From Amphibalanus amphitrite (lineage: Eukaryota; Arthropoda; Thecostraca; Balanomorpha; Balanidae), in assembly GCF_019059575.1 (NCBI RefSeq), contig NW_024881713.1, forward strand, positions 744,001 to 808,000: a stretch of 64,000 nucleotides of DNA. Reading direction: 5' to 3'. This document shows, piece by piece, positions 1,788-63,594 of the stretch (position 1 is the stretch's first letter; each line of letters opens with the position of its first letter). The notes beneath the pieces are model-generated. The model did no database searches. It saw only the letters and a program-made list of their open reading frames with translations, and was not told the origin of the DNA. The position numbers and the translations under genes are program-made.

Positions 1788-1791
1788 TTAA

Positions 1792-2680
1792 CCCTCGCAT
1801 GTGTGCGGCGTTTGCCAGCTTCTAATGTGTAGGGGGGGGTCGGTTGGACCCCCCCTTGCCGTTTGGCCCCTGATCGAGCTAGAGCTTCGCGGAAAAAACG
1901 AGCGTGTTGCCCGTGACGAGAGGAAGCCGATGATACCCAATTTTAAGGTCCTAGGTCATTGGTTGACCTTCCAGGTCAGGTCAATGACCCAAAGTCGGGA
2001 AAATCGGGACCTGTTAGAAAGTCGTAAAGTGTGGCTGCTAAGGGGTTTTTCGGGGTGCTGATCACGAATATCGTGTTAGTTTTGATCACAGATGATGTCT
2101 TTAAGCATTTAGACCAGGTCGGGTCAGGTCAGGTCAGGTCAACCAGTAGGCGTCGTGACGGGTATTTGTAGTACGTGTCAACCGCCTCTGACAGCTTCGT
2201 AACATGTTACGAAGGCACCAAAACTACTTCGTAAATGTTCAAATGGTTGCTAAATTCGAATTCAGCTCCAAAAACTAGCCTAGAAACATGTACAGCTCGA
2301 AAAAGTGAACCGAGGTCACCCGAGGTCACCAAAGGTCAATGACCTGACCTGACCTTCAGGTGACCTTGACACCCATCCTAATGCATGGAAGCAACATCAA
2401 ATCACATGTTTGAGCGTTTGAAACCACGAAAAGCTTGCAAACGCGCGGCTAATGCAAGCCGACATACGCAGAATCGAGATTCCGGCCAAACATAGTCTCG
2501 GAAAAGAGGTCACAGGTCAAAGGTCATTTGGGTCAGGGTCATGAAATTTTCAGGGTATGTGTAACATTGATCAATGTGAGGGTACTGAAAGTTTCGTCGC
2601 GATCGGCCGCATTTTACGCGAGTTATTCGCGAAAAACCATGGGGGGGTCCATCCGACCCCCCCCCCTACACATGCGAGGG
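1792..2680 (+). mobile_element. TTAA-flanked G-hairpin element A (piggyBac-like, non-autonomous)
   Basis: The element is flanked by TTAA at 1788-1791 and 2681-2684. The ends CCCTCGCATGTGT and its reverse complement match for 13 bp. A G-run hairpin follows each end (about 1832-1856 and 2641-2666). On the left the tail of the terminal repeat (ATGTGTAGGGG) is repeated at about 1824 after a short spacer. The interior has many AGGTCA/TGACCT words and a 20-bp palindrome, CTTCGTAACATGTTACGAAG, at 2195-2214. No transposase is present. Element E is an inverted copy of the same family. The TTAA duplication and CCC ends suggest piggyBac; the superfamily call is inference. Confidence 0.82.
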
Positions 2681-2684
2681 TTAA

Positions 2685-4398
2685 AATCTGAAAGGAAAGC
2701 GGGTACAGAAGAATTCTGCTATGTGGGAGACAAATAGTGGGAATATCAGTGGCGGACAAATGGGCTCAGTTGGGGCGGAAAATTGCGACGATTGCGGTGG
2801 CCGTTAGCGGACACGCCCCCGCATTAATCTGCGGGGCTGGACGGGCTCGCCCCTATGTCTCCGGCAGACGGCAGACGACAGACGGGTCTACGTCTCCGGC
2901 AGCCGGCGCGGCCCGTGGCCCAGCAAACGGCGAGGAGGACGGGGGAAGGTCACTCAGAGCAGAGGGGGGAGAGGTCCGAGTGAGCTGACCCGTTGCCAGA
3001 AGGCGAAAGCCAGATAGATCTCAGCTTTTCCCTTGGTGTGATGCAATGTTTGGCGAAATATCAAATATACAGGCCTATCCTTCACATCTCCAAAATTAAA
3101 ATAGATTTTGCCCCGTCAGTGGATAAGATTACGAGCTGCGCCATATCGACGACAGGGTGCTCACAACTACAAATTTTACTTTCAATGGATAGTCTGACGG
3201 GTATTTAGCGGGTGTGCAGACTGTGCTAGGTGTTAGCGATGGGCGCGAGCTCAGAGAGAATGGCGGGTCCTGTACGGTGCACTGCGCTAATACTTCTGAA
3301 TACGCGACTCCCTCTAAATGACTAAGACTTTTGGTCCTCCAGGAAATCGTGTGAATCAGAGTCCCGAACTCCCGACGCAGGGGGTGGGTCCCATTCCCAC
3401 TTCCACCCTCGCCCTTCTGTTCAAAGTTATAACTCTACTTTAGTCAAACAGCCTCTTCAAACGCCACTGATCTGGGTAATCGATAGAGTGAGTCAGATAG
3501 TCCAACATCAGAGTCCCGCTGTATTTATTCGTAGAACGGTAGCTGGCAGCAGGGCGCCACTGCTGTCATAATCACTAATCATCCAAACAGCGCGCCACTC
3601 AGGCAGTGGTGCCAAAGCGACACGTTAACCCCGAACGAGTGGGGTAAGCTCACCTATACACTGCTTCCGGCCCTATTACAGCGTATGTACGGGCTACACG
3701 ATCATGTCATGTGACATTGGTGCCAGCGTCCCTTTTTGTACAGTGTTCTATCACTACAGCGGCGCCGGCGAGCGTCGTCACATCACCTCCCCAAGCAACC
3801 GCTCCTCCCGGCCAGACCCACCCACCGCCCCAGTCCTCCTCCCTCCCCAATCACCCCCCCCCCCTCCCCACCTGTCATCGGCTCGTCGTCGGCCGTTCGC
3901 AGTTCTAGTGAACATTGAAAGTTGACAGGGCCTGCGAGTTGCGGTCCAGGTCGACGAGGGTTCGATGGCTCAAGAAACAATGGGCTTACGATTCACGATT
4001 TATAGTAACCGTGGATACGTCAAGCTAACACCGGCTATAGTTGCTCACTGCTCAGGTTAACACCTGCTCTTGGGATAAGTAAAGAGGGACAATATGGAGC
4101 TTGATGCTTAGTGCTCAGGTCAAAGCGGATGCTTCCCATGTCAGTGAATGAGAGGTCGTGCCCCAGATCAGTACGGTGTCTCTCTCCAGGTCAGCAGTGT
4201 GCCCTGCCCAGAGGTGACGGCTATACCGCCGCCCTGCCCAGCCCGGGCCGTGCGGGGGAGGCAGGGTGGCATACCGGTCTCGTTGGACGGCCGAGGGGTG
4301 CCGACGGACAGCGCATTTGTAAACTGTGAGTGGCAGCGTGCTGGCTCCGGCAGCGGGCGACGGGTCAGGGGAGTATAGGTCAGTCGATCGGAGGGAGA

Positions 4399-4403
<5 letters not shown>
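2685..4403. other. No recognisable gene; C-rich tract inside
   Basis: Nothing recognisable apart from a strongly pyrimidine-rich stretch at about 3785-3875 with runs of C. Open frames here are short, overlap on both strands and look like chance. Confidence 0.5.

Positions 4404-4475
<72 letters not shown>
4404..4475. repeat. (GA)n microsatellite
   Basis: An uninterrupted GA dinucleotide repeat of about 36 units. The Ser-Leu and Arg-Glu frames that run through it are repeat shadows. Confidence 0.97.
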
Positions 4476-4478
<3 letters not shown>

Positions 4479-4685
4479 TTTCCGAGAAGATGTGAGGGAA
4501 ACACACGATGAACATACGAGCATTTGACAATATATGGTGAGAGCTTGCTCATCATGATGATTAATCAATCATAAACATTCCGCGCAGGGCGTTTTAGGAT
4601 ATTTCCACACACTTATTTCTGAAGCCAGTGAGGTGTAGTAACAGGCACAACTACTCGAAATGCCATTGCAGGTGTTGTTCATAAA

Positions 4686-5350: not shown

Positions 5351-5358
5351 GCTTTGTA

Positions 5359-6458: not shown

Positions 6459-6462
6459 TTAA

Positions 6463-7648
6463 CCCGGCAGGCGGTGGGCCTACCAGCCACCTTCCACGCG
6501 GTGGGGGGGCACTTTTTTGCCCCCCCCCCGTATCTCCGAAACTACTGGACGGATCCGGAAAATTCAAACGGCGTTCGATAGCCCTGTCAAATTTGTCGAA
6601 GGAAACCAAATTTCATTGACCTCGGGGTCACCGATGACGTCACAGGTCAGGTCAAAGATAAAATGTTTCACCGTTCACAGGGCTTCTAGGGAAAGCGCTA
6701 TAACACCGAGTAAAACGCATTTTGTCGAAAATCAGCGATAAGGCGTCAGTTGTCTAGTATATATGTTGCTATTAGAGGTCACTGGTTATATCAGGTCAGG
6801 TCACAGGTCAGGTCATCAAAGGTCACCAAGGGTCACCACATGAGCCCAACTTTACTAAGGTTATGTGATGCATGTTTTATGGCCAGTTTTTCATTTCCAA
6901 CTCAATGGTGTTGGTTATAAGACCATCAGGTACGGTTTAGGTCACTTTCTGGTGGAGGTCAGGTCAAGGTCAGGTCAAAAAAGGTCAAATTTCAAAGTTG
7001 ATATTTTTGCATAAAATGGTTATCGATTCGATGCAGCTCGTCACGGGAAGTCTAATGGTGGTCTTTGTTTTGCGCTACGAGGTCTAGAATTGCTAAAAAT
7101 TGAGTTTGAAAATTTGACGTCATCAATTTTGAACAGTTTTTTCGCTATAACTTGGCCAAAAAACGAGGTATCGATCTCAAATTTGGTATGTGAATAGAAG
7201 GCGGTAGGGACTATCACATATATTCCGGTTTTTTCGAAATTCAAAAAACTTTTTGGATTTTTTGGCTATTATATTCAAAAAATCTATTTTTTGATTTTTG
7301 GGGGTCAAAATCCAAAAAAAATCGAAAAACCGAAATAGCAGTTTAATAGCCCTTTTGATTCCACACCTTTTATGTCTAAAACATTTTTCTGTATCTCTAA
7401 AGCTGTAGGCCTGACAGCTCTTCCCGCGAAACCTTTTTTGGGGTCGAAAATGGCAAAAATGACGTCACTCTTACGTCATTAGCGGCCAACCTATCATAGT
7501 CTTTGGAAAAAATTTTGGTCACCATGTGCGCTAGCTGCTCCCGGGAGGGTACTGAAAGTTTGGTGACGATCGGCGCAGCGGTTCTCAAGATATAGCGAAA
7601 AAAGTAAAGGGGGGGGGGGCAAAAAAATGCCCCCCACCGCCTGGAAGG
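6463..7648 (+). mobile_element. TTAA-flanked G-hairpin element B
   Basis: Flanked by TTAA at 6459-6462 and 7649-7652. The left end CCCGGCAGGCGGTGGG mirrors the right end, whose reverse complement is CCTTCCAGGCGGTGGG. G/C-run hairpins enclosing GCA-T-run cores sit at about 6502-6530 and 7610-7640. On the left, GCGGTGGG is repeated about 30 bp in, before the G run. The interior has dense AGGTCA words (for example 6640-6850 and 6955-6990) and a T/A-rich block at 7230-7340. Element D is the same family in the same orientation. There is no coding capacity for a transposase. Confidence 0.82.
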
Positions 7649-7652
7649 TTAA

Positions 7653-10011: not shown

Positions 10012-10015
10012 TTAA

Positions 10016-11021
10016 CCCGCGCACCGACGGGGGTCTGCGCCAACTTAGTACCGACGGGGGGGGGGGCGGATGACCGCCCCCCCCCCCCTGAGATCTCGAG
10101 AACGAAGCAAGATAGCGACAAGCGGTAAACGGCATCGGATACGCACGGTCAAGATCTACAATTTTTACTAAGGTCATTTTCAGGTCAGGTCAATGATGAC
10201 GTCACAGGGGTCGAAAAAGTCAAAATGGCGGCGCTAAATATGGAGAGAGTTTTTCTCGAATAACTTTCGAATTAGTCAAGATAGGAACAAACTAAGGGCA
10301 TCATCGTGATCCTCTCGTCAATCCGCATCGAATGATATATATGTTGACCTCGAAAGGTCAAGGTCAAAGGTTGACCTCAGGTCACGTGACCTCGAGGTCA
10401 TCATGTATATCATTCGATGCGTTCTTACGAGCTGAACACAATGAGACCATCCACGCGTCTGTATCTTGTTCCTGTACGGAGTTATTGGCCAAAAACCTTT
10501 GGTGACCTTTGATGACGTCACATGACCTCACAGCTGCCCAACAGCAAAACAGACCTCAAGGTAGTGAAGGTTGATCGTATATGAAGTCATGTATGGTATA
10601 TGGGGCCATTCCGACCCGTTTTAGTGGTAAAAACAGGGAGTTGATTTTTCCCCCATTGACTTATAATGGGGAGGTCGCGAAATTGACCTGACCTTAGGTC
10701 ACCGATATCAAAATTCCGAGATATACAAATTGTAGCTACTAATGACCTAATAACATCCTGCGACTTTCAAAGGCCTCCGACATCTACTGTAGCTCTGGCA
10801 CGGTGACAAAGTTGCAAAAAAGTGACTTGAGGTTGGGTCATTCAAAGTGACCTGGTGACCTGACCTTGAAAGGTAGGAGGTTCAAACTTGCACACCATGT
10901 GTAAAATTGATAAGGGAATAGTCATACCAAATTTCGCGGCGCTACGCGCCGCGGTTTTCCCGCTATTCGCGAAAAACCTCAGGGGGGGGCGGATATCCGC
11001 CCCCCCCCGTCGGTGCGCGGG
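10016..11021 (+). mobile_element. TTAA-flanked G-hairpin element C
   Basis: Flanked by TTAA at 10012-10015 and 11022-11025. Terminal repeats are CCCGCGCACCGACGGGGG and its mirror. On the left ACCGACGGGGG is repeated about 35 bp in, ahead of the G run. Hairpins lie at about 10058-10088 and 10982-11009; the right one has the core CGGATATCCG. Centrally, GCATCGAATGATATA and its inverted copy bracket a block of AGGTCA words and CACGTG (about 10323-10420). Element F is a diverged copy in the opposite orientation. A 67-codon minus-strand frame (10318-10521) is shared with F but is not clearly coding. Confidence 0.82.
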
Positions 11022-11025
11022 TTAA

Positions 11026-15664: not shown

Positions 15665-16520
15665 TTAACCCGGCAGGCGGTGGGCCTACCAGCCACCTTC
15701 CGCGCGGTGGGGGGGGGGCACTTTTTTGCCCCCCCCCCCGTATCTCCGAAACTACTGGACGGATCCGGAAAATTCAAACGGCGTTCGATAGCCCTGTCAA
15801 ATTTGTCGAGGGAAACCAAATTTCATTGACCTCGGGGTCACCGATGACGTCACAGGTCAGGTCAAAGATAAAACGTTTCACCGTTCACGGGGCTTCTAGG
15901 GAAAGCGCTATAACACCGAGTAAAACGCATTTTGTCGAAAATCAGCGATAAGGCGTCGGTTGTATAGTACATATGTTGCTATTAGAGGTCACTGGTCATA
16001 CCAGGTCAGGTCACAGGTCAGGTCACCAAAGGTCACCAAGGGTCACCACCAGGCATCGGTAAAATCCTTTTTGAAAGGATTGCATTCCCAATCCACATTC
16101 CTAGTGCCGAAGTGGATTGCATTCCTACCCGCAATCCCCTTTTTTCACTTGGATTGTGATCAAATCCGCAATCCTTTTTTGCAATCCTGTTGTATTATTA
16201 TGTGCACTAGTGGATCTGGGGGAGGGAGGGGGCATAGGGCCGTGCCTCCATCCCCAAATCACCCATTTCTAGTACCTAGTCTTGCGAGTAATTCCTATCT
16301 AAGGCACAAGTATTTTATGGGAAATATTTTTTGCCTCAAACACCCCCACATTTAAACCTCTACCCAACCAGTGTTTTATATTTTTAAAACTCGCCCTAAA
16401 ATACGTAATTTTGCCCTTCCTATGTAGTTCATCAGCGTATATTATTTTGAGCGTTTAAATTAAAAGCGTTTAAACTATTTCAAGTTTCGATGTAAAGCCC
16501 TTGATAGCAAAGTACATTAA

Positions 16521-16987
16521 AGGGACCCTCCCACCTTCAAAAAAGTTTATGAATTGGCATGAAAGTGATGTCGCTCGGTTCAGAAAGAGCAAAAACGAAT
16601 ATCTACCAAATTTCATCGAAAAATCACCGGTTTTCAAGATATTAGACTTTTACTTTTGTTTACTTTTTGGGATCTCCGCTGTTCCTATAGCGACTTTATT
16701 TGAAAGTGCGGCATTTGTTGCGCGCAAAGCAGCATATACCACCGCGTGCTACAAAACGTTTTAGTCAAACATTTAAAAATCGTTAGATATCTGCGCTGAC
16801 GTCACACATTCAGAGGGTTATTCCTATGCATTAGCCCCTCTGAATCAAAATGCTGCAATTTTGAAATTCAATATTTCCGATTTAAGGCATTTCTCGATGT
16901 TGTGAGTGCCGAAACCGGTAATTGTGAGCCAGGGACCCCATTTTGGCTATCTCAACTCAAATCTAATGTTAAGGTGGGAGGGTCCCT
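16521..16987. mobile_element. Small TTAA/TA-flanked inverted-repeat element K (MITE)
   Basis: A 467-bp element with perfect 17-bp inverted ends AGGGACCCTCCCACCTT, flanked by TTAA at 16517-16520 and 16988-16991. The flank could also be read as a TA duplication with ends starting AAGGGACC, so piggyBac-like and Tc1/mariner-like readings are both open. It is nested in the hAT-like element and shares its right TTAA with element E. Confidence 0.82.
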
Positions 16988-16991
16988 TTAA

Positions 16992-22421: not shown

Positions 22422-22423
22422 TA

Positions 22424-28467: not shown

Positions 28468-28471
28468 TTAA

Positions 28472-39390: not shown

Positions 39391-40040
39391 GACACACAGT
39401 GTACGTGTCTCCCTCTGGATCCCTCCGGCATTGTATGTAAAATGAAAGATGAAATTCATCTTATTCACTCTATTCGGACGTTATAACATCGCGAATCTGC
39501 TGTTGGCACCCTCCACCCCGCGTTGTCACGGCGTGGTCTCTGTGTCGCCTTTTTACCTGTGGCCGTCAGCTGCGCAGCTGATCTGTGTCGGATGTCTCGC
39601 TGTCAATCTGCACAGATCGCCGACACAGAGGATGTCGGGCCGGGCCTCGTCGTATAGGCTTAGGGGTATAGGGGTGACCACTGAGTCACTGACCACTCAA
39701 GCTGCACGAGGGGAAAGGGAGTGAGAATGTCCAGTGACTGTGGTATCAATCAGCGCCGAATTGGCCAAAATCCCAATGGAACCTTCGATTCAATAAATGA
39801 TAGACAATGGCGAAACGACAAAGGAAAAAACGATGAGTTTGTCTCAGCAATTATCTACTGTATGAAACTGAGAATTGTTCGTAATACTCTCATTCCAATA
39901 AACTATTGAATAGACCAAACCATTTCATTTTTAAACCATTCGCAGGGTGCAGATTTGTTAGGTTTTGTAAAAGGACTGCTTATATGAGTCGTTAAGACAG
40001 TAAGTATATAAAAGCAGGTACGTTCAGATCTTTCTTCCGT
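39391..40040. other. No recognisable gene
   Basis: Ordinary sequence between element I and the tandem array. Nothing recognised. Confidence 0.5.
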
Positions 40041-47100: not shown

Positions 47101-49541
47101 ATCCGAAGGTTGGGACTTTTCAATTAGACAATCACTATTCTTTAGAATTGTGATTTTCTATTGAAAATCCCAACCTGAGCTACCTCTCTAGGGGGGTGTT
47201 TAGCGTTTCGGCCGCGATTTGGGTCATTTTGACTCCCGCAAAAACGGCTCCATTATATTTCTTGCCATTTTCAGCGTTTGGTCCCGTGTGGGGGAGCTAC
47301 CGGCTGGCAAAGTTACAAAAAATATAATTGACACGTTTTGGGGTAATCGGCACGTGCATTTTCCCATAGGGTTAACATGGGGAAAAATTGGAAATTTGAT
47401 TTGCGAAAAATTTCGTCAATTATATTTGCTGATATTTTTAGGGTCGGATCTAGGGCTGGCACCTCAACTTTTGGGGTTAATTATTTAAAAATCATAGGAT
47501 ACAATTTCGGGTAATCGTGACGGACAGTTACCCCATGTTGAGCCTATGGCGAATTCGAAAAATTATTTTCAACTCGATTTTGCCAAAAATTTCCACGTTA
47601 GATTTTGAAAATGTTCCAATATGTTGTGCCCCGGGGTGTCGGCTACCACGTGGTATGGGTCAGATATGGGGCGATTGAAAAGCACGTGCCACGTGCAAAC
47701 GTGTTTGATGGGGTAACCTCCGGGAAAATCCGACATTGGCCAACTGGGGGTCCTATGGCGCGGAAACGACTTCATTTAGCGACACCAAATCAGTGCAGCC
47801 GGTGAGCAGATGAGTCCAGCTTGTAGCACTGGTGGTCACGTGGCGCACGTGCTATTGCACGTGCCGTGGCACGGGGTCAATTTTTGTTCTTAAATACACC
47901 AACATTGTGAAATGCAAGGAATGGGGGAAATAGCCGTCAGGCCGTCAGTTTTTATGATAGAGTCGATCTGAAAACGGGTATAGACACAGATTGAACGGTG
48001 CTAGAAAACTGCTATCTCGGATTTTTTGTAAAATGAAAAATTTAAAATTCTAGGGAAATTATATACTAGAAAGGTGAAATTTCCCTAAATTTTCCCGTTT
48101 TTCAAGTTTAGCCGTCCACTGTTCAGTGACGATGACACCGGCCGGGGTCATCTTTTACATGATAATGGCCACGTCCATGGGTAATGATATGACATAAACG
48201 GCGAAGCTGCCCGAAGCCCAGCACGTGCCACGTGGCCACGTGTTTGACTCGAGTACCTCCCAGATTATCGTGTGTTTGCCGATTTATGGCCTTATAGCAC
48301 GAAAACGGCACCAGTCAGGAAGCCTGAAATGGCAAAATCGATGAGGGGACAAGTCCTCTTTACACCACCGGTTGTCACGTGGCGCACGTGCAAATCTGGG
48401 CACCTCCGTTGCGGAGATAATTTATAGTGAAATATTCAAATGTACATAACTTTGTCAGTTTAAGTCCGATTGGGCTGGAATTTGGTGGGTGGATGAATTG
48501 TTAAGCGACAAGAACGAATGCGCCATGTTTGTTGCAGTGCGCCACGTTTGCCTCAAAGCGCCATTTTTGCCGCAAAGCGCAGAATGTGCGTAACTTTGTC
48601 GAACATTGGACGATTAGGATGCGCTGTAATTAAGGGATGGCTGCTTAAACGGCAGATATGAATGCACCACATTTGCCGCAGGGCGCCATATTTGTCCTAA
48701 TGCGTCAGTGTTTGCGTTTTGCCTACGGCGGGCGTTTTTTGCGGCGGTGTTTGCGTTTTTTTCGGGGTTTGCGTTTGACGGCGGGCGGCCGTTTTGCGTT
48801 TTTGGCGGTGTTTGCGTTTGGCGGCGAGCGGCCGTTTTTTGCGGCGTTTTGCGGTTGGCGGCGGGCGGGCGTGCGTTGCGGGCGTTTTTTTGCGGCGGTG
48901 TTTGCGTTTTTTGCGGTTTTTGTGTTTGGCGGCGGGCGGGCGGGCGATGCGGGTGTTTTTGCTGTTTGCGTTTGGCGGCGGGCGGCCGTTTTAGCGGCGG
49001 TTTGCGGCGGGCGGCCGTTTTTTTTGCGGCGTTTTGCGGTTTGCGGTGGGCGGCCGTTTTTGCGGCGTTTTTTGTTTTGCGGAGGGTGGCCGTTTTTTAC
49101 GGCGTTTTGCGGTTGCCGGCGGCCGGCCGTTATTTGCGGTTAGCGGCGGGCGGCGGGCGGTCGTTTTTTGCGGCGTTTAGCGGTTTGCGGCGGGCGGTCG
49201 TTTTTGCGGCGTTTTGCGGTTCGCGGCGTGCGGCCGTTTTTTGCGGCGTTTCGCGGTTGGCGGCGGGCGACGCGGGCGTTTTTTTGCGGCGGCGGTGTTT
49301 GCGTGATTTGCGGTGTTTGTGTTTTGCGGCGGATGCGCGTTTTTTGCGGCATTTTGTGCGTTTTTTCTGCGGTTTTCGGCGGGCGGGCGATTGTTTTTTT
49401 TGCGAAGTTTGCGTTGGCGTTTTAGGCGTGCGTTTTGCGCGTTTTGCGGTGTTTGCGTTTGGCGGCGGGCGGGCGGTTTTTCACAATTAAAGTCCCAACC
49501 TTCGGATCCGCAGTGCTGTTCGACAAGCGCTGCCCGGGCCT
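47101..49541 (+). repeat. Array unit 4
   Basis: A 2,441-bp unit, minisatellite about 48715-49480. Nearly identical to unit 6, sharing private variants such as GACTCCCGCAAAAACGGCTC near 47230. Confidence 0.9.
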
Positions 49542-51936
49542 ATCCGAAGGTTGGGACTTTTCAATTAGACAATCACTATTCTTTAGAATTGTGATTTTCT
49601 ATTGAAAATCCCAACCTGAGCTACCTCTCTAGGGGGATGTTTAGCGTTTCTGCCGCGATTTGGGTCATTTTGATCGCCGCCGAAACGGCTCGGTAGATTT
49701 TCTTGCCATTTTCAGCGTTTGGTCCCGTATCGGGGAGCTACCGGCTGGCATCGGTCGCTTGAAATATAATTAACCCGTTTTGGGGTAATCGGCACGTGCA
49801 TTTTCCCATAGGGTTAACATGGGGAAAAATTTAAAATGCGATTTGCGCAAAATCTGTTCAGTAATATTTGTTCACTTTTTTAGGGTCAGTTCTTGAGCTG
49901 GCACCTCACCTTCTGGGGGTAATTATTTAAAAATCATAGGGTACAGTTTCGGGTAATCGTGACGGACAGTTACCCCATGTTGAGCCTATGTCGATTTCGA
50001 AAAATTATTTTCAAATCGATTTTGCAAAAAATTTCCACGTTAGATTTTGAAAAAGTTCCAATATGTTGTGTACCGGGGTGTCGGCTACCACGTGGTATGG
50101 GTCAGATATGGGGCGATTGAAAAGCACGTGCCACGTGCAAACGTGTTTGATGGGGTAACCTCCGGGAAAATCCGACATTGGCCAACTGGAGGTCCTATGG
50201 CGTGGAAACCACTCCACCGAGCGACACCAAATCAACGCAGCCGGTGAGCAGATGAGTCCAGCTTGTCGCACTAGTGGTCACGTGGCGCACGTGCTATTGC
50301 ACGTGCCGTGGCACGGGGTCAATTTTGGTGCTTAAATATACTAGCATTGTGAAATGCAAGGAATGGGGGAAATACCCGTCAGGCCGTCAGTTTTTATGAT
50401 AGGGTCAATCTGAAAACGGGTATAGGCACAGAATGAAGGGGGCTAGAGAACTGCTATCTCGGATTTTTTGTAAAATGAAAAATTTAAAATTCTGGGGAAA
50501 TTATATATTCGAAAGGTGAAATTTCCCTAAATTTTCCCGTTTTTCGAGTTTAGCCGTCCACTGTTCAGAGACGGTGACACCGGCCGCGGTCATCTTTTAC
50601 ATGCTGATGGCCACGTCGATGGGTCATCACGTGGCGTGAACGGTGAAGCTATCAGAGGTCCGGCACGTGCCACGTGGCCACGTGTTTGAGTCTAGTACCT
50701 CCCAGATTACCGTGTGTTTGCCGATTTGTGGCCTTATAGCACCAAAACAGCAAAAGCCAGGAACACTGAAATGGTGCAATCAGTGAGGAGACAAGTCCTG
50801 CTTGCACCACCGGTGGTCACGTGGCACACGTGCAAATCTGGGCACCTCCGTTGCGGAGATATTTTATAGTGAAATATTCAAATGTACATAACTTTGTCAG
50901 TTTAAGTCCGATTGGGCTAGAATTTGGTGGTTGGATGAATTGTTAAGCGACAGGAACGAATGCGCCACGTTTGTTGCAGTGCGCCACGTTTGTCTCAAAG
51001 CGCCATTTTTGCCGCAAAGCGCAGAATGTGCGTAACTTTGTCGAACATTGGACGATTAGGATGCGCTGTAATTAAGGGATGGCTGCTTAAACGGCAGATA
51101 TGAATGCACCACATTTGCCGCAGGGCGCCATATTTGTCTTAATGCGTCAGTGTTTGCGTTTTGCCTACGGCGGGCGTTTTTTTTTTGCGGCGGCGTTTGC
51201 GTTTTTTTCGGGGTTTGCGTTTGACGGCGGGCGGCCGTTTTTGCGTTTTTGGCGGTGTTTGCGTTTGGCGGCGGGCAGCCGTTTTTGGCGGCGTTTTGCG
51301 GTTGGCGGCGGGCGTGCGTGCGTTGCGGGCGTTTTTTTGCGGCGGTGTTTGCGCGTTTTTTTTGCGGTTTTTGTGTTTGGCGGCGGGCGGGCGGGCGATG
51401 CGGGTGTTTTTGCGGTGTTTGCGTTTGGCGGCGGGCGGCCGTTTTAGCGGCGGTTTGCGGTGGGCGGGCGTTTTTTTGCGGCATTTTGCGTTTTGCAGCG
51501 GGCGGCCGTTTTTTGCGGCGTTTTGCGGTTTGCGGCGGGCGGTCGTTTTTGCGGTTTTTTGTGGTTTGCGGCGGGCGGCCGTTTTTTTGCGGCGTTTTGC
51601 GGTTGCCGGCGGCCGGGCGTTATTTGCGTTGTTGCGATTTGCGGCGGGCGGCCGTTTTTTTTGCGGCGTTTTGCCGTTGGCGGCGGGCGATGCGGGCGTT
51701 TTTTTGTTGCGGCGGTGTGTGCGTTTTGCGGCGGACGGGCGTTTTTTTGCGGCGTTTTTTGCGTTTTTTTTCTGCGGTTTTCGGCGGGCGGGCGATTGTT
51801 TTTTTTTTGCGAAGTTTGCGTTTGCGTTTTGGGCGTGCGTTTTGCGGTGTTTGCGTTTGGCGGCGAGCGGGCGGTTTTTCATAATTAAAGTCCCAACCTT
51901 CGGATCCGCAGAGCTGTTCGACAAGCGCTGCCCGGT
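49542..51936 (+). repeat. Array unit 5 (near-identical to unit 2)
   Basis: A 2,395-bp unit. Differences from unit 2 that I can see are mainly lengths of T runs inside the minisatellite (about 51150-51880). Confidence 0.9.
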
Positions 51937-54376
51937 ATCCGAAGGTTGGGACTTTTCAATTAGACAATCACTATTCTTTAGAATTGTGATTTTCTATTGA
52001 AAATCCCAACCTGAGCTACCTCTCTAGGGGGGTGTTTAGCGTTTCGGCCGCGATTTGGGTCATTTTGACTCCCGCAAAAACGGCTCCATTATATTTCTTG
52101 CCATTTTCAGCGTTTGGTCCCGTGTGGGGGAGCTACCGGCTGGCAAAGTTACAAAAAATATAATTGACACGTTTTGGGGTAATCGGCACGTGCATTTTCC
52201 CATAGGGTTAACATGGGGAAAAATTGGAAATTTGATTTGCGAAAAATTTCGTCAATTATATTTGCTGATATTTTTAGGGTCGGATCTAGGGCTGGCACCT
52301 CAACTTTTGGGGTTAATTATTTAAAAATCATAGGATACAATTTCGGGTAATCGTGACGGACAGTTACCCCATGTTGAGCCTATGGCGAATTCGAAAAATT
52401 ATTTTCAACTCGATTTTGCCAAAAATTTCCACGTTAGATTTTGAAAATGTTCCAATATGTTGTGCCCCGGGGTGTCGGCTACCACGTGGTATGGGTCAGA
52501 TATGGGGCGATTGAAAAGCACGTGCCACGTGCAAACGTGTTTGATGGGGTAACCTCCGGGAAAATCCGACATTGGCCAACTGGGGGTCCTATGGCGCGGA
52601 AACGACTTCATTTAGCGACACCAAATCAGTGCAGCCGGTGAGCAGATGAGTCCAGCTTGTAGCACTGGTGGTCACGTGGCGCACGTGCTATTGCACGTGC
52701 CGTGGCACGGGGTCAATTTTTGTTCTTAAATACACCAACATTGTGAAATGCAAGGAATGGGGGAAATAGCCGTCAGGCCGTCAGTTTTTATGATAGAGTC
52801 GATCTGAAAACGGGTATAGACACAGATTGAACGGTGCTAGAAAACTGCTATCTCGGATTTTTTGTAAAATGAAAAATTTAAAATTCTAGGGAAATTATAT
52901 ACTAGAAAGGTGAAATTTCCCTAAATTTTCCCGTTTTTCAAGTTTAGCCGTCCACTGTTCAGTGACGATGACACCGGCCGGGGTCATCTTTTACATGATA
53001 ATGGCCACGTCCATGGGTAATGATATGACATAAACGGCGAAGCTGCCCGAAGCCCAGCACGTGCCACGTGGCCACGTGTTTGACTCGAGTACCTCCCAGA
53101 TTATCGTGTGTTTGCCGATTTATGGCCTTATAGCACGAAAACGGCACCAGTCAGGAAGCCTGAAATGGCAAAATCGATGAGGGGACAAGTCCTCTTTACA
53201 CCACCGGTTGTCACGTGGCGCACGTGCAAATCTGGGCACCTCCGTTGCGGAGATAATTTATAGTGAAATATTCAAATGTACATAACTTTGTCAGTTTAAG
53301 TCCGATTGGGCTGGAATTTGGTGGGTGGATGAATTGTTAAGCGACAAGAACGAATGCGCCATGTTTGTTGCAGTGCGCCACGTTTGCCTCAAAGCGCCAT
53401 TTTTGCCGCAAAGCGCAGAATGTGCGTAACTTTGTCGAACATTGGACGATTAGGATGCGCTGTAATTAAGGGATGGCTGCTTAAACGGCAGATATGAATG
53501 CACCACATTTGCCGCAGGGCGCCATATTTGTCCTAATGCGTCAGTGTTTGCGTTTTGCCTACGGCGGGCGTTTTTTGCGGCGGTGTTTGCGTTTTTTTCG
53601 GGGTTTGCGTTTGACGGCGGGCGGCCGTTTTGCGTTTTTGGCGGTGTTTGCGTTTGGCGGCGAGCGGCCGTTTTTTGCGGCGTTTTGCGGTTGGCGGCGG
53701 GCGGGCGTGCGTTGCGGGCGTTTTTTTGCGGCGGTGTTTGCGTTTTTTGCGGTTTTTGTGTTTGGCGGCGGGCGGGCGGGCGATGCGGGTGTTTTTGCTG
53801 TTTGCGTTTGGCGGCGGGCGGCCGTTTTAGCGGCGGTTTGCGGCGGGCGGCCGTTTTTTTTGCGGCGTTTTGCGGTTTGCGGTGGGCGGCCGTTTTTGCG
53901 GCGTTTTTTGTTTTGCGGAGGGTGGCCGTTTTTTACGGCGTTTTGCGGTTGCCGGCGGCCGGCCGTTATTTGCGGTTAGCGGCGGGCGGCGGGCGGTCGT
54001 TTTTTGCGGCGTTTAGCGGTTTGCGGCGGGCGGTCGTTTTTGCGGCGTTTTGCGGTTCGCGGCGTGCGGCCGTTTTTTGCGGCGTTTCGCGGTTGGCGGC
54101 GGGCGACGCGGGCGTTTTTTTGCGGCGGCGGTGTTTGCGTGATTTGCGGTGTTTGTGTTTTGCGGCGGATGCGCGTTTTTTGCGGCATTTTGTGCGTTTT
54201 TTCTGCGGTTTTCGGCGGGCGGGCGATTGTTTTTTTGCGAAGTTTGCGTTGGCGTTTTAGGCGTGCGTTTTGCGCGTTTTGCGGTGTTTGCGTTTGGCGG
54301 CGGGCGGGCGGTTTTTCACAATTAAAGTCCCAACCTTCGGATCCGCAGTGCTGTTCGACAAGCGCTGCCCGGGCCT
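51937..54376 (+). repeat. Array unit 6 (near-identical to unit 4)
   Basis: A 2,440-bp unit, differing visibly from unit 4 by a T-run length near 54230. Confidence 0.9.
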
Positions 54377-56819
54377 ATCCGAAGGTTGGGACTTTTCAAT
54401 TAAGAACAATCACTATTCTTTAGAATTGTGATTTTCTATTGAAAATCCCAACCTGAGCTACCTCTCTAGGGGGGTGTTTAGCGTTTCGGCCGCGATTTTG
54501 GTCATTTTGATTCCCGCCGAAACGGCTCGGTAGATTTTCTTGCTTTTTTCAGCGTTTGGTCCCGTATCGGGGAGCTACCGGCTGGCATCGGTCGCTTGAA
54601 ATATAATTAACCCGTTTTGGGGTAATCGGCACGTGCATTTTCCCATAGGGTTAACATGGGGGAAAATTGGAAATTCGATTTGCGAAAAATTTCGTCAATT
54701 ATATTTGCTGATATTTTTAGGGTCGGATCTCGGGCTGGCACCCCAACTGACGGTGGTAATTATTTAAAATATAATTGACAAAATTTCGGGTAATCGTCAC
54801 AAACAGTTACCCCATGTTGAGCCTATGGCGAATTCGAAAAATTATTTTCAAATCGATTTTGCAAAAAAAATCCACGTTAGATTTTGAAAATGTTTCAATA
54901 TGTTGTGCCCCGGGGTGTCGGCTACCACATGGTATGGGTCAGATATGGGGCGATTGAAAAGCACGTGCCACGTGCAAACGTGTTTGATGGGGTAACCTCC
55001 GGGAAAATCCGACATTGGCCAACTGGGGGTCCTATGGCGTGGAAACCACTCCACCTAGCGACACCAAATCAGTGCAGCCGGTGAGCAGATGAGTCCAGCT
55101 TGTCGCACTAGTGGTCACGTGGCGCACGTGCTATTGCACGTGCCATGGCACGGGGTCAATTTTGGTGCTTAAATATACTAGCATTGTGAAATGCAAGGAA
55201 TGGGGGAAATAGCCGTCAGGCCATCAGGTTTTATGATAGGGTCGATCTGAAAACGGGTATAGGCACAGAATGAAAGGGGCTAAAAAACTGCTATCTCGGA
55301 TTTTTTGTAAAATGAAAAATTCAAAATTCTGGGGAAATTATATATTCGAAAGGTGAAATTTCCCTAAATTTTCCCGTTTTTCGAGTTTACCCGTCCACTG
55401 CTCAGGGACGGTGACACCGGCCGGGGTCATCTTTTACATGCTGATGGCCACGTCGATGGGTCATCACGTGGCGTGAACGGTGAAGCTATCAAAGGTCCGG
55501 CACGTGCCACGTGGCCACGTGTTTGAGTCGCGTACCTTCCAGATTATCGTGTGTTAGCCGATTTGTGGCCTTATAGCACGAAAACAGCACCAGTCAGGAA
55601 GCCTGTAATGGAACAATCAGTGAGGGGACAAGTCCTGCTTACACCACCAGTGGTTACGTGGCACACGTGCGAAGGTGGGCACCTTCGTGGCGGAGATACT
55701 TCATAGCGAAATATTAAATATGCATAACTTTGTCAAATATGGTCCGATTGGACTAGATTTTGGTGGGTGGATGAATTGTTAAGCGACGTGAACGAATGCG
55801 CCATGTTTGTTGCAGTGCGCCACGTTTGTCTCAAAGCGCCATTTTTGCCGCAAAGCGCAGAATGTGCGTAACTTTGTCGAACATTGGACGATTAGGATGC
55901 GCTGTAATACTGGGATGGCTGCTTAAACGGCAGATATGAATGCACCACATTTGCCGCAGAGCGCCATATTTGTCTTAATGCGTCAGTGTTTGCGTTTTGC
56001 CTACGGCGGGCGTTTTTTTGCGGCGGTGTTTGCGTTTTTTCGGTGTTTGCGTTTGACGGCGGGCGGCCGTTTTTGCGTTTTTGGCGGTGTTTGCGTTTGG
56101 CGGCGGGCGGCCGTTCTTTTGCGGCGTTTTGCGGTTGGCGGCGGGCGTGCGTGCGTTGCGGGCGTTTTTTTTTGCGGCGGTGTTTGCGTTTTTTGCGGTT
56201 TTTGTGTTTGGCGGCGGGCGGGCGGGCGATGCGGGTGTTTTTGCTGTTTGCATTTGGCGGCGGGCGGCCGTTTTAGCGGCGGTTTGCGGCGAGCGGCCGT
56301 TTTTTGCGGCGTTTTGCGGTTTGCGGCGGGCGGCCGTTTTTTGCGGCGTTTTGTGGTTTGCGGCGGGCGGCCGTTTTTTACGGCGTTTTACGGTTGCCGG
56401 CGGCCGGCCGTTATTTGCGGTTAGCGGCGGGCGGCGGGCGGTCGTTTTTTTGCGGCGTTTAGCGGTTTGCAGCGGGCGGCCGTTTTTGCGGCGTTTTGCG
56501 GTTCCCGGCGTGCGGCCGTTTTTTTGCGGCGTTTCGCGGTTGGCGGCGGGCGATGCGGGCGTTTTTTTGCGGCGGCGTGGTTTGCGTTTTTTGCGGTGTT
56601 TGCGTTTTGCGGCGGACGGGCGGTGTTTGGCGGCGTTTTTTTGCGTTTTTTTCTGCGGTTTTCGGCGCGCGGGCGATTGTTTTTTTTTTGCGAAGTTTGC
56701 GTTGGCGTTTTGGGCGTGCGTTTTGCGCGTTTTGCGGTTTTGCGTTTTGCGGCGGGCGGGCGGTTTTTCACAATTAAAGTCCCAACCTTCGGATCCGCAG
56801 TGCTGTTCGACAAGCGCTG
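54377..56819 (+). repeat. Array unit 7 (right end of array)
   Basis: The most diverged unit in its first kilobase (for example near 54740-54790 and 55660-55745). Minisatellite about 55985-56765. It ends in the terminal hairpin at 56798-56819 with no linker, followed directly by unrelated sequence. Confidence 0.9.
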
Positions 56820-58380
56820 TATTCCTGCTTCTAATGCAAAATGTGAAAGCGGGCTGGCCGTTGGTTTGCTATAAGTGCAATCGGCAGCATTATTATTCAG
56901 ATCCAGAACACTCTGCATTCTTTAGTGCACGTGAATTATCGATCGGAGTTTACTTAGGATTCGCTGCATGAACAGGATCTCCTGTATCCGATTGCCTATC
57001 TTTACGATAGTGTTTCAAAAGCGATTTATCACTAAACATCAGCTAATTCAATTAGCCATTCGAGAAAAAGCGGTTTGTAATCTCTGGAGCGGCGGCACCC
57101 GATGAAACATGATCGCCACGGTTGCGGGCAGGTGGCACGGTGTAAATCAATCGATAGTGACTCGTTGGATCATATATGTCAGATAATATAGAATCACGCG
57201 TCCACAGTGCAGAGTTCCTGCAGGAGCTTACCGGACGACCTGCGGCAGGCTGCTGACCTTACGGTACGACCTGCACGGCAGGCTGTTCACCGTTACCGGG
57301 GATCATTCTACTGCTAATCCCCATGGCGTTACTCCTCGGCCTTTTACGGACATCAGCGTTCCGACAGCGCTTCTGAGCACTCTTCTGGCTTATCACCGAT
57401 TGACGTATATGTATATGCGCATACCTACAGTTAAATTAGCCAAACAATGTAAGCGTGACGCGGGTAACATGGGTATACCACGGAATGTCGTAGACTATAT
57501 ACAAATTCAATTTATGTATATTCCGTGGGTATACATACACTATACGCGCTGATAAAGGCTTTTTCAAAAAGAGACGGCATGATATCAAACATTTGTAGTG
57601 TAATGTGGATTGTAAGGTATGTAATATATCAATTATATTATGAATATATGCAAAACATACTAAAAAATACTGAATGAGAACAAGCATGTTCTTCCAAACT
57701 AGATGTAGAAGTACGTTCTGCGAACCATTGCCACGATAACGAGCACTGGTCACTGCAGAGTATGTTGCACATCCTGCACCCCAGCTTCTGACATCCCAGT
57801 TCTGTCTCTGGTGACTCCCGCGCTGCTAGCCCCGCACAATTGACGTCACTGGTCGCACGGTGGTCCGGCGCGGCGGTGTTACATTCAATTCGCCACTGGA
57901 CAGGCGCACTTCATCATTGGCTGAAAACCTTGTGACGCGTCAGATGTGTTAACGCCCTGTTGCACAATGTGTGCCTGAAAGCTCTTCTCCTACCAGGCTA
58001 AATTGGTGATAAATGTCACTCAATTACCAGATAACCAGAATGAATGTTCACCGCAAAAACATAAATCAGAATGTTCTGCCGTTTATTATGAGCGATAACG
58101 TCAGCGACGACGACGATTTTCAAATGTGTGGCGTTATATATAAAAAACGACAATGTATTCAAATACACAATTAAAAAACAAACCTCTGCTGTTTAATAAG
58201 TGTAGCGTTATACTGACAATCTCTTAGGTAGAAATGAATCATATTGTCTGTCCCAGGAATTTCACAAATTCCTGGCAACTAACATAGTAAGGTATCGAGC
58301 AGCTAGAGTTTCGCCTAAAATAAAAAAGCTCCGTTTATCAAAATTGAATGCAACTACGAATTGAATGAAGGCTGCTATAG
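56820..58380. other. No recognisable gene
   Basis: AT-rich to mixed sequence. Nothing recognised beyond short inverted words near 57470-57540. Confidence 0.5.
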
Positions 58381-58394
58381 TACACTGAAAAAAA

Positions 58395-58705
58395 TAATGA
58401 CACCTAAAAGGGGTGTTTTTTGAAGCGTACCAAAAACGCGCAGTTTTCTGGAGTCCGATTACACCCGGAATCAGACACTTTCTAGGGTATTATGACACTG
58501 GTTGAGGGTGTATTTTTACACCGTACGTCGTCAAATGATTCCCGGAATCATACGCCTTATGGAATAAATATACACCCCAAATCAGAGTCATAATACTCTA
58601 GGAAGTGTCTGAAGTGTCTGATTCCGGGTGTAATCTGACTCCTGGAAACTGCGCGTTTTTGGTACGCTTCAAAAAACACCCCTTTTAGGTGCCACTTCAG
58701 GGAGT
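58395..58705. repeat. Large imperfect inverted repeat
   Basis: About 58395-58495 (beginning ACACCTAAAAGGGGTGTTTT) is closely complementary to about 58585-58692. The word GCGTACCAAAAACGCGCAGT on the left faces its complement near 58650-58670. Arms are about 100 bp with an 80-90 bp spacer. Confidence 0.85.
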
Positions 58706-59327
58706 AATCGGATCTTGAGGGTGTATTTTGATCCCACACGGTGTATGATTCCGGGAATCATTTGACGACATGTGGTATAAAATACACCCCAAATCAGAGT
58801 CATAATACTCTAGGAAGTGTCTGAAGTGTCTGATTCCGGGTGTAATCTGACTCCTGGAAACTGCGCGTTTTTGGTACGCTTCAAAAAACACCCCTTTTAG
58901 GTGTCACTTCAGGGAGTAATCGGATCTTGAGGGTGTATTTTGATCCCACACGGTGTATGATTCCGGGAATCATTTGACGACATGTGGTATAAAATACACC
59001 CCAAATCAGAGTCATAATACTCTAGGAAGTGTCTGAAGTGTCTGATTCCGGGTGTAATCTGACTCCTGGAAACTGCGCGTTTTTGGTACGCTTCAAAAAA
59101 CACCCCTTTTAGGTGTCACTTCAGGGAGTAATCGGATCTTGAGGGTGTATTTTGATCCCACACGGTGTATGATTCCGGGAATCATTTGACGACATGTGGT
59201 ATAAAATAAACCCCAAATCAGAGTCATAATACTCTAGGAAGTGTCTGATTCCGGGTGTAATCTGACTCCTGGAAACTGCGCGTTTTTGGTACGCTTCAAA
59301 AAACACCCCTCGTAGGTGTCACCTCAA
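58692..59327. repeat. 212-bp tandem repeat, 3 copies
   Basis: Copies at about 58692-58903, 58904-59115 and 59116-59320 are almost identical; the third lacks about 10 bp of a GAAGTGTCTGA duplication. Each ends in the arm of the inverted repeat at 58395-58705, so the array appears to have grown from that arm. Confidence 0.92.
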
Positions 59328-60389: not shown

Positions 60390-61230
60390 TATTTCATCTT
60401 CGTGGCGGACCGGCATGGCTAGAACACAAATGACGTCACACGACAATGCAGCTTGCTGATTGGCCGGGCATTGACTCAAACCACTGGACCTGAGCTGTGG
60501 TTCGCACCAGGGTTACAGAGTCAGAGTCAGAGTCGGGTGGAGTTGACAGTTGTGGCCGGAGTCAGAGTCGGAGTCGACGGCGACTTTGGAAGCCGGAGCT
60601 GGAGTCGGAGTCTGGGTCACCGAAAATCAATTGATACCGCAGCGTATCCGGACAAATCTTTGCATGGCATTTCTTCGTCGCGCAATTCTTCGTCCGCAAA
60701 ACTTCGTCCGCTCATTTCTTCGTCCGCGCATTTCTTCGTCTCCGCCTTTCTTCGTCTTGCATTTCTTCGTCTCGCATTTCTTCGTCTCGCATTTCTTCGT
60801 CCGAGCATTTCTTCGTCTCCGCATTTCTTCGTCCGCGCATTTCTTTGTCTCGCATTTCTTCGTTTCGCATTTCTTCGTCTCGCATTTCTTCGTCTCGCAT
60901 TTCTTCGCCTCGCATGTCTTCGTCTTGCATGTCTTCGTCTTGCATGTCTTCGTCTCGCATTTCTTCGTCTCGCATTTCTTCGTCTCCGTATTTTTTCGTC
61001 TCGCATTTCTTCGTCCGCACATTTCTTCGTTTCCGCATTTCTTCGTCTCGCATTTTTTTTTCGCAAATCTTCGTCCGCAAATTGACAGTGCAGCCTGCTG
61101 ATTGGGCTATTGCCTATTTCATCTTCGTAGCGGACCAGCCATGGCTAGCTCACACATGACGTCACTCGGGGCATTGATTCAAACCACTGAACCTACACCA
61201 GGGTTACGGAGTCAGAGTCGGAGTCCGTTG
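60390..61230. repeat. Direct duplication flanking a 15-bp minisatellite
   Basis: About 140 bp (60390-60530: ATTTCATCTTCGTGGCGGAC... to the GTCAGAGTCAGAGTC run) recurs at 61118-61230 with substitutions and small indels, including the GACGTCA and GGGTTAC words. Both copies lead into TCAGAGTCGGAGTC repeats (60518-60615 and 61209-61330). Confidence 0.8.
60671..61077. repeat. TTCTTCGTCTCGCAT minisatellite
   Basis: About 26 copies of a 15-17 bp unit (TTCTTCGTCTCGCAT or TTCTTCGTCCGCGCAT). Long Phe/Leu/Arg-rich and Arg/Glu-rich frames on both strands are shadows of this repeat. Confidence 0.93.
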
Positions 61231-61343
61231 GAGTCCGACAAATAGGGTAGTCGGAGTCGGTTGGAAACGACAGTTCTGGCCGTAGTCGGAGTCGGAGTCG
61301 ATATTGGAAGCCGGAGCTGGATTCGGAGTCTGATTCACCGAAA

Positions 61344-61401
61344 ATCTCTTGACTCTGCAGTGTTGGTTCCCATAGGAACCAACACTGCAGAGTCAAGAGA
61401 T
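61344..61401. repeat. Perfect 27-bp hairpin
   Basis: Arms 61344-61370 and 61375-61401 are exact reverse complements (left arm ATCTCTTGACTCTGCAGTGT..., loop CATA). A cruciform or hairpin RNA is possible. Confidence 0.92.
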
Positions 61402-61464
61402 GGTGGTATACCACCAGTGACGTCAAAACAATTTCTGTAATAATTTAGTGTTTTTTGATACTAT

Positions 61465-61779
61465 CATGTGGAGTTTTTGAACCCTATGGGTGTCATTTCA
61501 CTCAGTTGAGCGTTTTCGTAATCCGTGACTCGCTTATTAGGTGTAATTTGACCCTCAGTGGTGCCATAATATTCCGGTGTCATTTGAACCCAATGGGGCT
61601 CAAATGACACCGGAATATTATGACACTACCGAGGGTCAAATTACACTCAATAAGTCATTTGAACGGAATATTATGACACCACTGAGGATCAAATTACACC
61701 TAATAAGGGAGTCACGGATTGCGAAAACGCTCAACTGTGTGAAATGACACCTATAGGATATAAAAACTCCTCACGATAG
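61465..61779. repeat. Large palindrome with tandem duplication in one arm
   Basis: The left arm (about 61465-61591) mirrors the right arm (about 61596-61779), centred near 61593. The right arm carries an extra copy of about 55 bp (GGAATATTATGACAC...GGTCAAATTACAC occurs twice). Confidence 0.85.
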
Positions 61780-62029
61780 CGTCAAAAACGCTTAGATGTG
61801 TTATTTTACACTGACACCGTGCAGGATCTTTTGACACGACACCTAAAATGGGAGTCAAAATTTTGGGAGTCAAATGTCCCTTGGGTATGTGATTCTGACC
61901 GAGATCAATTTACACTAAAAAACGGTGTATGGACACTGTTTTTCAGAATCGGATTACACCATGGGTGTCAGTTGATTCCCAAATAGGGGATCGTGATTCC
62001 CGGGGGGAGTAATTATTTTTCTCCGTGTA

Positions 62030-62550
62030 ATGTTAAAAGTCAAATGCTACGGCGGTGGATATTCCTCAAAAAACAGAAGAGAAGTCAATACATGGCTGAT
62101 GAAATATCACCGGACCAGCACAGCGCGGGTCACACAGATCCTTTTTCACGCGCCTCTGCCATTCGGTGACAGGATAACGCTCTTAACGACCAGCTCAATG
62201 CCTGTGTTGGGCCGCTTTTTGCAGTAGAGCTCATCGGCGACTCGGCGACAAGGTTCTTGTTTCAGAAATGATGTCTGGCCCACGGCATAGCGGGTGTACA
62301 TACTTATGAAATGTCTCGGTATTCAGTGTTAAAACTCGGCATGTAAGTACCTACCTACTGGAAGAAAGGCAGACAGGTGTCATTTGGTCTTAATCGCCGC
62401 CATCGATCACTTGTCACCTGTCACCTCTCAGCTGTCAAATGACGGGTCTGCAGCAGTGTCTCAGACCGCTCAACTCTCAGTATAAGTGCCAAGCGGGTCA
62501 GAAACCGTCTCTAATTAGCTGACTCAGACAAGCCAAATTAGGCATACAGT
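62030..62550. other. No recognisable gene
   Basis: About 520 bp between the composite element and element J. Nothing recognised. Confidence 0.5.
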
Positions 62551-62554
62551 TTAA

Positions 62555-63590
62555 CCCTCGCCGGCCGAGGGGGGGGGCGGGTGCCGCCCCCCCCCCCCAT
62601 AGGGTTTTTTTCGCGATAGCTCCGAACACGCTGGCGATAGAGAGCTGAAACTTGGCATACCTGACCTTTGATCCAAGCCGGATCTTTTGACACCAACCGC
62701 ATTTTTGGGTCAGGTCAGGTCACTGACCTATGACGTCATAAGTGAACCTCTGCACGGTCTTCAGATGTCGCAACTTCGCAACGCCCTCACTGCCAGAGGA
62801 GATGTCACAGGGAATTGAAACTTGCAGGATCTAGTATCCATTATGAGTCCCACAACTTGTATATCTCGGATTTTTCCTAAAGGTCATATGAGGTCAGGTC
62901 ATTTTCGCGACCTCACCATTATAAGTCAATGGGGAAAAATTCAAACTGTTATTCTGGCGCCGGGAACGATCTCCAACTATCTCAAGCACACAGAATCGTG
63001 ATTTGATGCACTCCTTGCAAGGTTAGATGCGTCACTTTTGCAATGTTGACCTTGCGTGACGTCATTTATGACGTCATCAAGGTCATATTAGTTTTTCGTC
63101 AATAACTCTTGATCAAATTGAGCTAGCGAGTCGGGAAAGCCACCAATGGACTCAGGAAGACCTGCCGAATCGAATGATATGCGACATGACCTGTTTCGAC
63201 CAACTTCGTGACCTGGGGGTGCTGACCTGACCTTGACCTGAGGTCAACACCCCAAGTTGACCTGACCCGGACAAAAAGTATATCATTCGACGCGCCTGAA
63301 CGAGACGAACACGATGCTGCCAAAATCGGCGCTCTGCGACCGTTTTTTGCGAAGTTATTCACCAAAAACGGAACCGTACCTTGGGGCACTTGACCTGACC
63401 TCAGAGGTCACCGGTTGACCTAGGACCTTAAAATCGGGTACCAATCTCTGCGTCTCGTAACGGCGCACACGCTCGTTTTTTCCGCGACGCGCTAGCTCCA
63501 CCAGGGGCGAAACGGCGAGGGGGGGTCGTACCCGCCCCCCCCCCCCCCTCGGCCGGCGCGTATGTAGAAAACCAATAGGTCCGGCGAGGG
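62555..63590 (+). mobile_element. TTAA-flanked G-hairpin element J
   Basis: Flanked by TTAA at 62551-62554 and 63591-63594. Ends are CCCTCGCCGG and its mirror. G/C hairpins lie at about 62569-62599 and 63519-63549. GCCGGCCGAGGGG is doubled at the right after about 30 bp. Centrally, TCGAATGATAT (63171-63181) and ATATCATTCGA (63280-63290) bracket a cluster of AGGTCA/TGACCT words. It is the full-length relative of element G. Confidence 0.85.
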
Positions 63591-63594
63591 TTAA

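Follow-up and report, generated by a model that had tools for sequence, protein, structure and literature searches.

The piggyBac transposon has a left end (LE) of 35 bp and a right end (RE) of 63 bp (Chen et al. 2020, PMC7351741; here and below, statements on published systems refer to the accessible parts of the cited papers). Both ends contain a palindromic-like 19 bp repeat, which was seen bound as a duplex by a dimer of C-terminal domains. The palindrome occupies bp 17–33 of the LE, and bp 34–63 of the RE are almost identical to bp 7–35 of the LE, a right-end layout that the authors of the structure called a "puzzling arrangement"; randomising the second repeat of the RE, or inserting 5 bp there, approximately halved activity (PMC7351741). 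Another study gave distances of 3 and 31 nt between the piggyBac repeats and the terminal repeats and stated that subterminal or inner inverted repeats may occur in piggyBac-like elements (PMC12324416). The superfamily is mobilised by DDD transposases of the PF13843 type and duplicates TTAA, rarely TTAT, ATAA or CTAA. Minority target sites besides TTAA are also documented for piggyBac elements (PMC3849761, PMC6651600), with TTAT and ATAA accounting for 5.93% and 5.09% of Pokey/mPok insertions in Daphnia (PMC3849761). Here we analysed a 64 kb stretch of the barnacle Amphibalanus amphitrite (contig NW_024881713.1, positions 744,001 to 808,000; hereafter the window), which carries ten elements (A to J) that are very probably non-autonomous members, of the miniature inverted-repeat transposable element (MITE) type, of several piggyBac-superfamily families moved by transposases outside the window.

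End architecture

Each of the ten elements had one single end and one doubled end. At the single end, a G-run that pairs with a C-run began at bp 14–16 in 10/10 elements, and at the doubled end it began at bp 40–43 in the eight elements with an intact doubled-end hairpin. The short word preceding the single-end G-run recurred in the doubled end at an offset of 26–28 bp in 10/10 elements (7–10 of 10 letters), and no second copy in a single end was better than 6/10 letters. In the doubled ends of H and I the outer word had diverged (5/8 letters), leaving the inner copy alone to match. A register-free test of the longest shared word in doubled ends versus random window DNA gave stronger results (≤0.007) for C (0.0005), G (0.001), F (0.002), B and D (0.0035 each) and J (0.007), and weak ones for I (0.04), A (0.06), E (0.18) and H (0.6); the evidence for the word repeat is its constant offset.

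We scanned the window for hairpins of at least six G, a loop of 3–14 nt and at least six C. The results revealed 18 hairpins, all of them (18/18) at element ends, whereas 100 first-order Markov simulations, a null model also used for the motif counts below, gave a mean of 0.01 and a maximum of 1; given that position, a chance origin of the hairpins was rejected. Matches were thus present at 18/20 ends (imperfect at the single end of H) and at both ends of 8/10 elements, with none at the doubled ends of G and H. A search of Rfam at the gathering threshold gave no match.

Eight words were counted in the ten elements, namely those of A, E, B/D, C, F, G, H/I and J; one is common to B and D and another to H and I, and A/E and C/F share bodies (C/F partly) but not words. 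All ten elements began with CC and ended with GG, so that CC stood at the start of both ends. CCCT was present at both ends of 7/10 (A, E, F, G, H, I and J), B and D had CCTT at the single end and CCCG at the doubled end, and C had CCCG at both.

An earlier, sequence-only reading of this DNA had described ten elements at TTAA whose G-runs pair with C-runs, with one end only doubled across a 25–30 bp spacer, and this agrees with the hairpin and offset counts above and with the target sites below, which are more exactly TTAA-type. Its claim that the doubled end is always the same biological end was confirmed by A/E and C/F, which align in opposite orientations with doubled end on doubled end, and its estimate of at least six families with different terminal words fits the eight counted. 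As to the proposed CC(C/T) tips, CC held at both ends in 10/10 elements, but CC[C/T]T was absent from one or both ends of B, C and D.

Target sites and element boundaries

Elements were delimited from their ends, and coordinates exclude the flanking 4 bp. The flanks were TTAA/TTAA in 8/10 elements, ATAA/TTAA in H and TTAT/TTAT in J. The boundaries were checked by an empty-site test in 1/10 elements, F (28472–29458, plus strand, 987 bp, TTAA/TTAA; single-end hairpin 28485–28512, doubled-end hairpin 29395–29419). This element lies in the reverse transcriptase (RT) frame of a retrotransposon of the type without long terminal repeats (26992–28515, plus strand, PF00078); F breaks the frame, the last residues of which are F sequence. 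When F and one TTAA were excised, the translated joint aligned without gaps to homologues, at up to 57% identity over 181 aa, and the ends of F are therefore exact. Scoring of RT homologues covered the 7997 candidates with the most shared words, and the best 120 of 506 were listed.

Four further elements lie on the minus strand with TTAA/TTAA flanks. Element A (1792–2680, 889 bp, word ATGTGT) has its doubled end on the left (hairpin 1832–1855) and its single end on the right (2641–2666). Doubled-end and single-end hairpins lie at 6503–6529 and 7609–7635 in B (6463–7648, 1186 bp, word AGGCGGT) and at 10056–10088 and 10982–11008 in C (10016–11021, 1006 bp, word CACCGAC). Element G (32351–33363, 1013 bp) has a single-end hairpin at 33324–33349, and its doubled end keeps the repeated word with the hairpin absent. 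Element D (15669–18926, minus strand; doubled-end hairpin 15709–15739, single-end hairpin 18886–18913) belongs to the family of B and is interrupted by a nested insert at approximately 16050–18110. Inverted ends CAGGCATCGG/CCGATGCCTG bound this insert, which shows what looks like a duplication of 8 bp, GTCACCAC, and is probably hAT-like. Inside it sits E (16992–17886, plus strand, 895 bp, TTAA/TTAA, word CCGTAT), with its single-end hairpin at 17006–17035 and its doubled-end hairpin at 17816–17845.

The remaining elements are on the plus strand. Element I (62555–63590, 1036 bp, TTAA/TTAA) has single-end and doubled-end hairpins at 62569–62598 and 63519–63548, and J (38477–39386, 910 bp) at 38492–38524 and 39317–39344. 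Element H (30108–30532, 425 bp) is a relative of I with an internal deletion and decayed hairpins (single end 30122–30154). With a length of 425–1186 bp (D with its insert excepted), non-coding bodies, defined ends and several copies in the window, the elements have the properties of MITEs.

Covariation of the palindromic stem

The inner arms beyond the G/C runs also paired, with letters that differ by family (TC/GA, CA/TG, CGG/CCG, CCGA/TCGG and TGG/CCA). We compared 17 hairpins, omitting those of H and the doubled end of G. Extra inner pairs per hairpin were 2.41 within ends versus 0.55 for arms combined across families, and 0/20000 shuffles were as good; the shuffle overstates this strength because ends that belong to one element, or to related ones, are non-independent, and five arm types remain. 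Exceptions were the doubled end of I (0 extra pairs), the single end of F (1) and the doubled end of J (1). Since the stem letters vary by family yet pair, these results indicate that the palindrome has been maintained while its sequence turned over.

Tips versus bodies

Bodies of related elements were highly similar (B/D 96.3%; H/I 94.9% of 312 aligned bp; A/E 94.1%), and the shared doubled-side body of C and F was identical in 634/641 columns, with approximately 640–660 bp common to the two elements at 98–99%. With the first 7 bp omitted, doubled-tip identity was 0.97 for B/D and 0.94 for H/I, and it was 0.53 for A/E and 0.43 for C/F, which fall within the range of the 41 other pairs (mean 0.44, range 0.29–0.63). 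At the doubled end, C/F switched at the inner C-run and A/E at the G-run. Between the single ends of A and E only 3/14 tip letters differed, and those of C and F diverged over approximately 290 bp, with a break well inward of the hairpin.

Judged from these alignments, the simplest account of the doubled ends of A/E and C/F is that end pieces were exchanged, in both pairs at the hairpin, and A/E may instead have changed stepwise. That both pairs of tips diverged by fast stepwise change within one lineage, with no exchange of end pieces, is unlikely in our judgement, though with a real chance of being right. The single-end tips of A/E, with few differing letters and hairpin inner arms that largely agree, would fit such a course. 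At the doubled end of C/F, however, everything outward of the inner C-run is unrelated, inner arms included, next to the near-identical columns inward, and the doubled-end spacer of A/E is, besides the word, as dissimilar as in unrelated families.

AGGTCA arrays in the bodies

AGGTCA is the nuclear-receptor half-site. This hexamer or its complement TGACCT occurred 150 times in the elements (approximately 9.5 kb, both D parts counted) versus 24 times in the remaining 54 kb, and the Markov null gave a mean of 4.4 and a maximum of 11. The nine elements without D held 135 sites, and the 180 anagrams of this hexamer had a median count of 3; the overlapping neighbours GGTCAA and AAGGTC reached 51 and 38, and the flanks showed modest preferences only (98 sites, six elements). 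Among 89 neighbouring pairs at most 12 bp apart in these nine elements, 26 were GGTCA tandems (direct repeats, DR-1), and a pentamer microsatellite was rejected as the whole source on that count; the other 63 had varied spacings and orientations, e.g. 11 direct (DR4), 7 inverted (IR5) and 7 everted (ER1) repeats.

The spacing of the sites was analysed in the same nine elements. Of 25 spacings between clusters of at least two sites, 23 measured 161–207 bp and two, in C and F, 142 bp. The best period was 175 bp (165–180 nearly equal), and 0/5000 random placements were as strong, the period being drawn from six body families that are partly homologous among themselves. The cluster nearest the doubled tip lay 144–186 bp away in 9/9 elements examined (a lone site in G). 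From the single tip the distance was 159–188 bp in A, C, E, F, G and J, 166 bp in I (preceded by a lone site at 110), 684 bp in B and 246 bp in H.

In four related pairs, with substitutions counted and indels excluded, only 1/270 motif positions had changed versus 99/2267 other positions (Fisher P = 0.0002). By site, with both sequences of each pair counted, 92/94 were unchanged, one was substituted and one lay in a deletion (a site of A falls in a deletion of E). With the motif mask slid along non-CpG control columns, 9.1 substitutions were expected and 6/20000 shifts gave one or fewer; CpG decay was rejected as the cause of the conservation because significance persisted on these columns. 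With the motif masked, body units were homologous (z ≥ 6) in 30/595 pairs, 2 of them within one element, versus 9/630 outside the elements, and in seven elements the stretch behind the hairpin was related among most single ends (not J) and most doubled ends (not G). Common descent therefore explains part of the enrichment and spacing; the lower divergence of the motif is not explained by it.

Tentatively, as a proposal that may well be wrong, the bodies could be selected arrays of AGGTCA half-sites, in which clusters follow one another every 170 bp or so (about one nucleosome repeat) and keep a constant distance to the doubled tip. A protein that binds AGGTCA, a host nuclear receptor or some other, would then keep the element in an open state or deliver it to the transposase, and this platform would be kept while end pieces swap to follow the active transposase.

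Outside the elements, 128 bp tandem repeats occur at 36565–36810 and 37228–37473, and their phrase CGAGAACGG..GACC..CTCAAATTTGGCA resembles, by eye, the module just inside the element hairpins.

Searches in other collections and other features of the window

Viral contigs scanned for CCCTCGC with hairpin ends gave 0 matches; a scan of them for piggyBac tips gave 4 loci with no palindrome in the stretches available, and a piggyBac transposase profile scan gave 85 pattern stretches, none of which was confirmed. A collection of genome contigs scanned for such ends returned 34 stretches; judged by reading approximately 100 bp of each, these were G/C-rich or contig-end matches, none similar to the ends described here. 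Element F had no match in a phage collection.

Three repeat regions were also observed. Tandem blocks rich in GCGGCGTTTGCG extend over approximately 40000–58000, approximately 2.4 kb apart (the spacing of recurring matches), with a strong plus-strand skew of G over C and T over A. A satellite-like 212 bp array (3.8 copies, 96%) lies at 58535–59326, and a 15/93 bp array GCATTTCTTCGTCTC at 60667–61078.

Discussion

The ends follow the left/right grammar of piggyBac. At the single end the order is tip, word and palindrome; at the doubled end a spacer and a second word stand between the first word and the palindrome, which lies 26–28 bp further in. By analogy with solved transpososomes, the transposase core would read the tip and the word, and a dimer of C-terminal zinc-binding domains would bind the palindrome with its G-run/C-run stem and family-specific inner pairs. 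The extra word and palindrome of the doubled end may hold a second, non-catalytic dimer, giving an asymmetric synapsis that needs one end of each kind. Each resident transposase would then recognise its own word as a code, and bodies would change codes by exchanging end pieces, at the hairpin in the doubled ends seen here, perhaps when gap repair switches templates within the G/C runs that the ends share.

Several observations weigh against this interpretation. Searches of the window with 120 proteins among the matches listed and with a profile of 13 sequences, all lying fairly near the moth protein, detected no piggyBac transposase (lowest E values: tblastn 0.007, over 38 aa; hmmsearch 7). 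Pfam likewise gave no transposase, with two weak sub-threshold matches, in ten element-overlapping frames picked from reading frames of at least 90 aa. Superfamily membership therefore rests on the ends and target sites; non-autonomous copies need carry no transposase, but the link to an enzyme is putative. The CC[C/T]T tip is missing at both ends of C and at the doubled end of B and D, the doubled ends of G and H lack a strong hairpin, and the doubled-end stem of I shows no gain of inner pairs. The hairpin was not the exchange point at the single end of C/F, because the two sides differ over such a long stretch. Finally, the LE/RE grammar is not universal, because piggyBat, a true member of the superfamily, is without a right-end palindrome.

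The doubled word might instead be a by-product of how the end originated, not a transposase site, with the hairpin acting as extruded single-strand DNA (a cruciform), not as a duplex palindrome. Folded as single-stranded DNA, 6/7 end hairpins did beat shuffles (z −2.9 to −4.4; the doubled end of G, z −0.7), and cruciform recognition has been discussed for PGBD5 (PMC12324416). We nevertheless consider this explanation improbable, as the word offset is held in every element, and in piggyBac the second repeat and its spacing affect activity and the palindrome is bound as a duplex (PMC7351741).

The reading as piggyBac-type elements also has to be compared with other superfamilies. Sola3 elements combine TTAA duplication with Sola-type ends and transposase. 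An origin of the elements from Kolobok or Sola3 with a convergent end layout is the least probable alternative and a very unlikely one: Kolobok likewise duplicates TTAA and the window offers no transposase to decide the superfamily, but the termini of Kolobok, the one other TTAA superfamily compared, are 5'-RR..YY-3' (PMC9587614), for which Kolobok was rejected against the CC start at both ends of all ten elements, the spacing here is close to that of the piggyBac LE and RE, and TTAT and ATAA are documented piggyBac sites (PMC3849761, PMC6651600).

That ten elements, which use eight words and several palindrome alphabets, keep nearly the same spacing suggests that the layout is a selected rule in part of the piggyBac superfamily. 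They also supply naturally occurring variants with which the letters read by the transposase could be tested. A specialist would be surprised by the mismatch between tips and bodies and by the AGGTCA clusters, constrained and evenly spaced as they are, and each of the two calls for data from the whole genome; if the AGGTCA constraint is confirmed on that scale, non-coding transposons would carry a maintained transcription-factor platform.

Among described relatives, piggyBat of Myotis lucifugus likewise has a repeated short motif, a palindrome 3 bp behind it and asymmetric ends, but it carries three motif/palindrome pairs on its left end and no palindrome on its right (PMC11707139, PMC13405395), whereas most elements here have one at both. 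The coral MITEs (CMITEs) of Acropora share TTAA, CC[C/T]T tips and interiors more conserved between families than their terminal repeats, a feature left unexplained in that paper (PMC2872659) and one on which the tip/body mismatches may bear; they differ in being approximately 100 bp long, and the accessible part of that source mentions neither half-doubled ends nor G/C-run palindromes nor AGGTCA arrays. The Pokey/mPok MITEs of Daphnia are non-autonomous piggyBac derivatives with TTAT/ATAA sites, as for J and possibly H, and the main text of that paper does not contain the words "subterminal", "palindrom" or "asymmetric" (PMC3849761). In the accessible parts of the open-licence literature searched, neither G/C-run palindromes nor AGGTCA arrays were described for TTAA elements.

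The closest likeness is to piggyBac itself (Ifp2, Trichoplusia ni), which shares the TTAA duplication, the CCCT tip and the order and spacing of the end parts: its palindrome follows after approximately 16 bp at one end and lies approximately 28 bp further in at the other, with a duplicated short repeat, the right-end layout being taken from the text of the papers. The sequence-only reading knew of no described piggyBac MITE group with paired G hairpins and a half-doubled end, but the published left and right ends do not support the view that the layout is undescribed; its assignment to the piggyBac type is supported by the target sites and the LE/RE-like spacing, and its suggestion that the doubled word may be a second transposase site marking one end gains plausibility from the published right end. 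Compared with Ifp2, the elements here have a G-run/C-run stem, eight words and no transposase detected, and their particular features are these G/C-run palindromes, the use of eight words as alternatives and the mismatch of tips with bodies. The structure is real and regular, and its best interpretation is a new group of non-autonomous families of the piggyBac type, in which a known left/right grammar is written in new letters.

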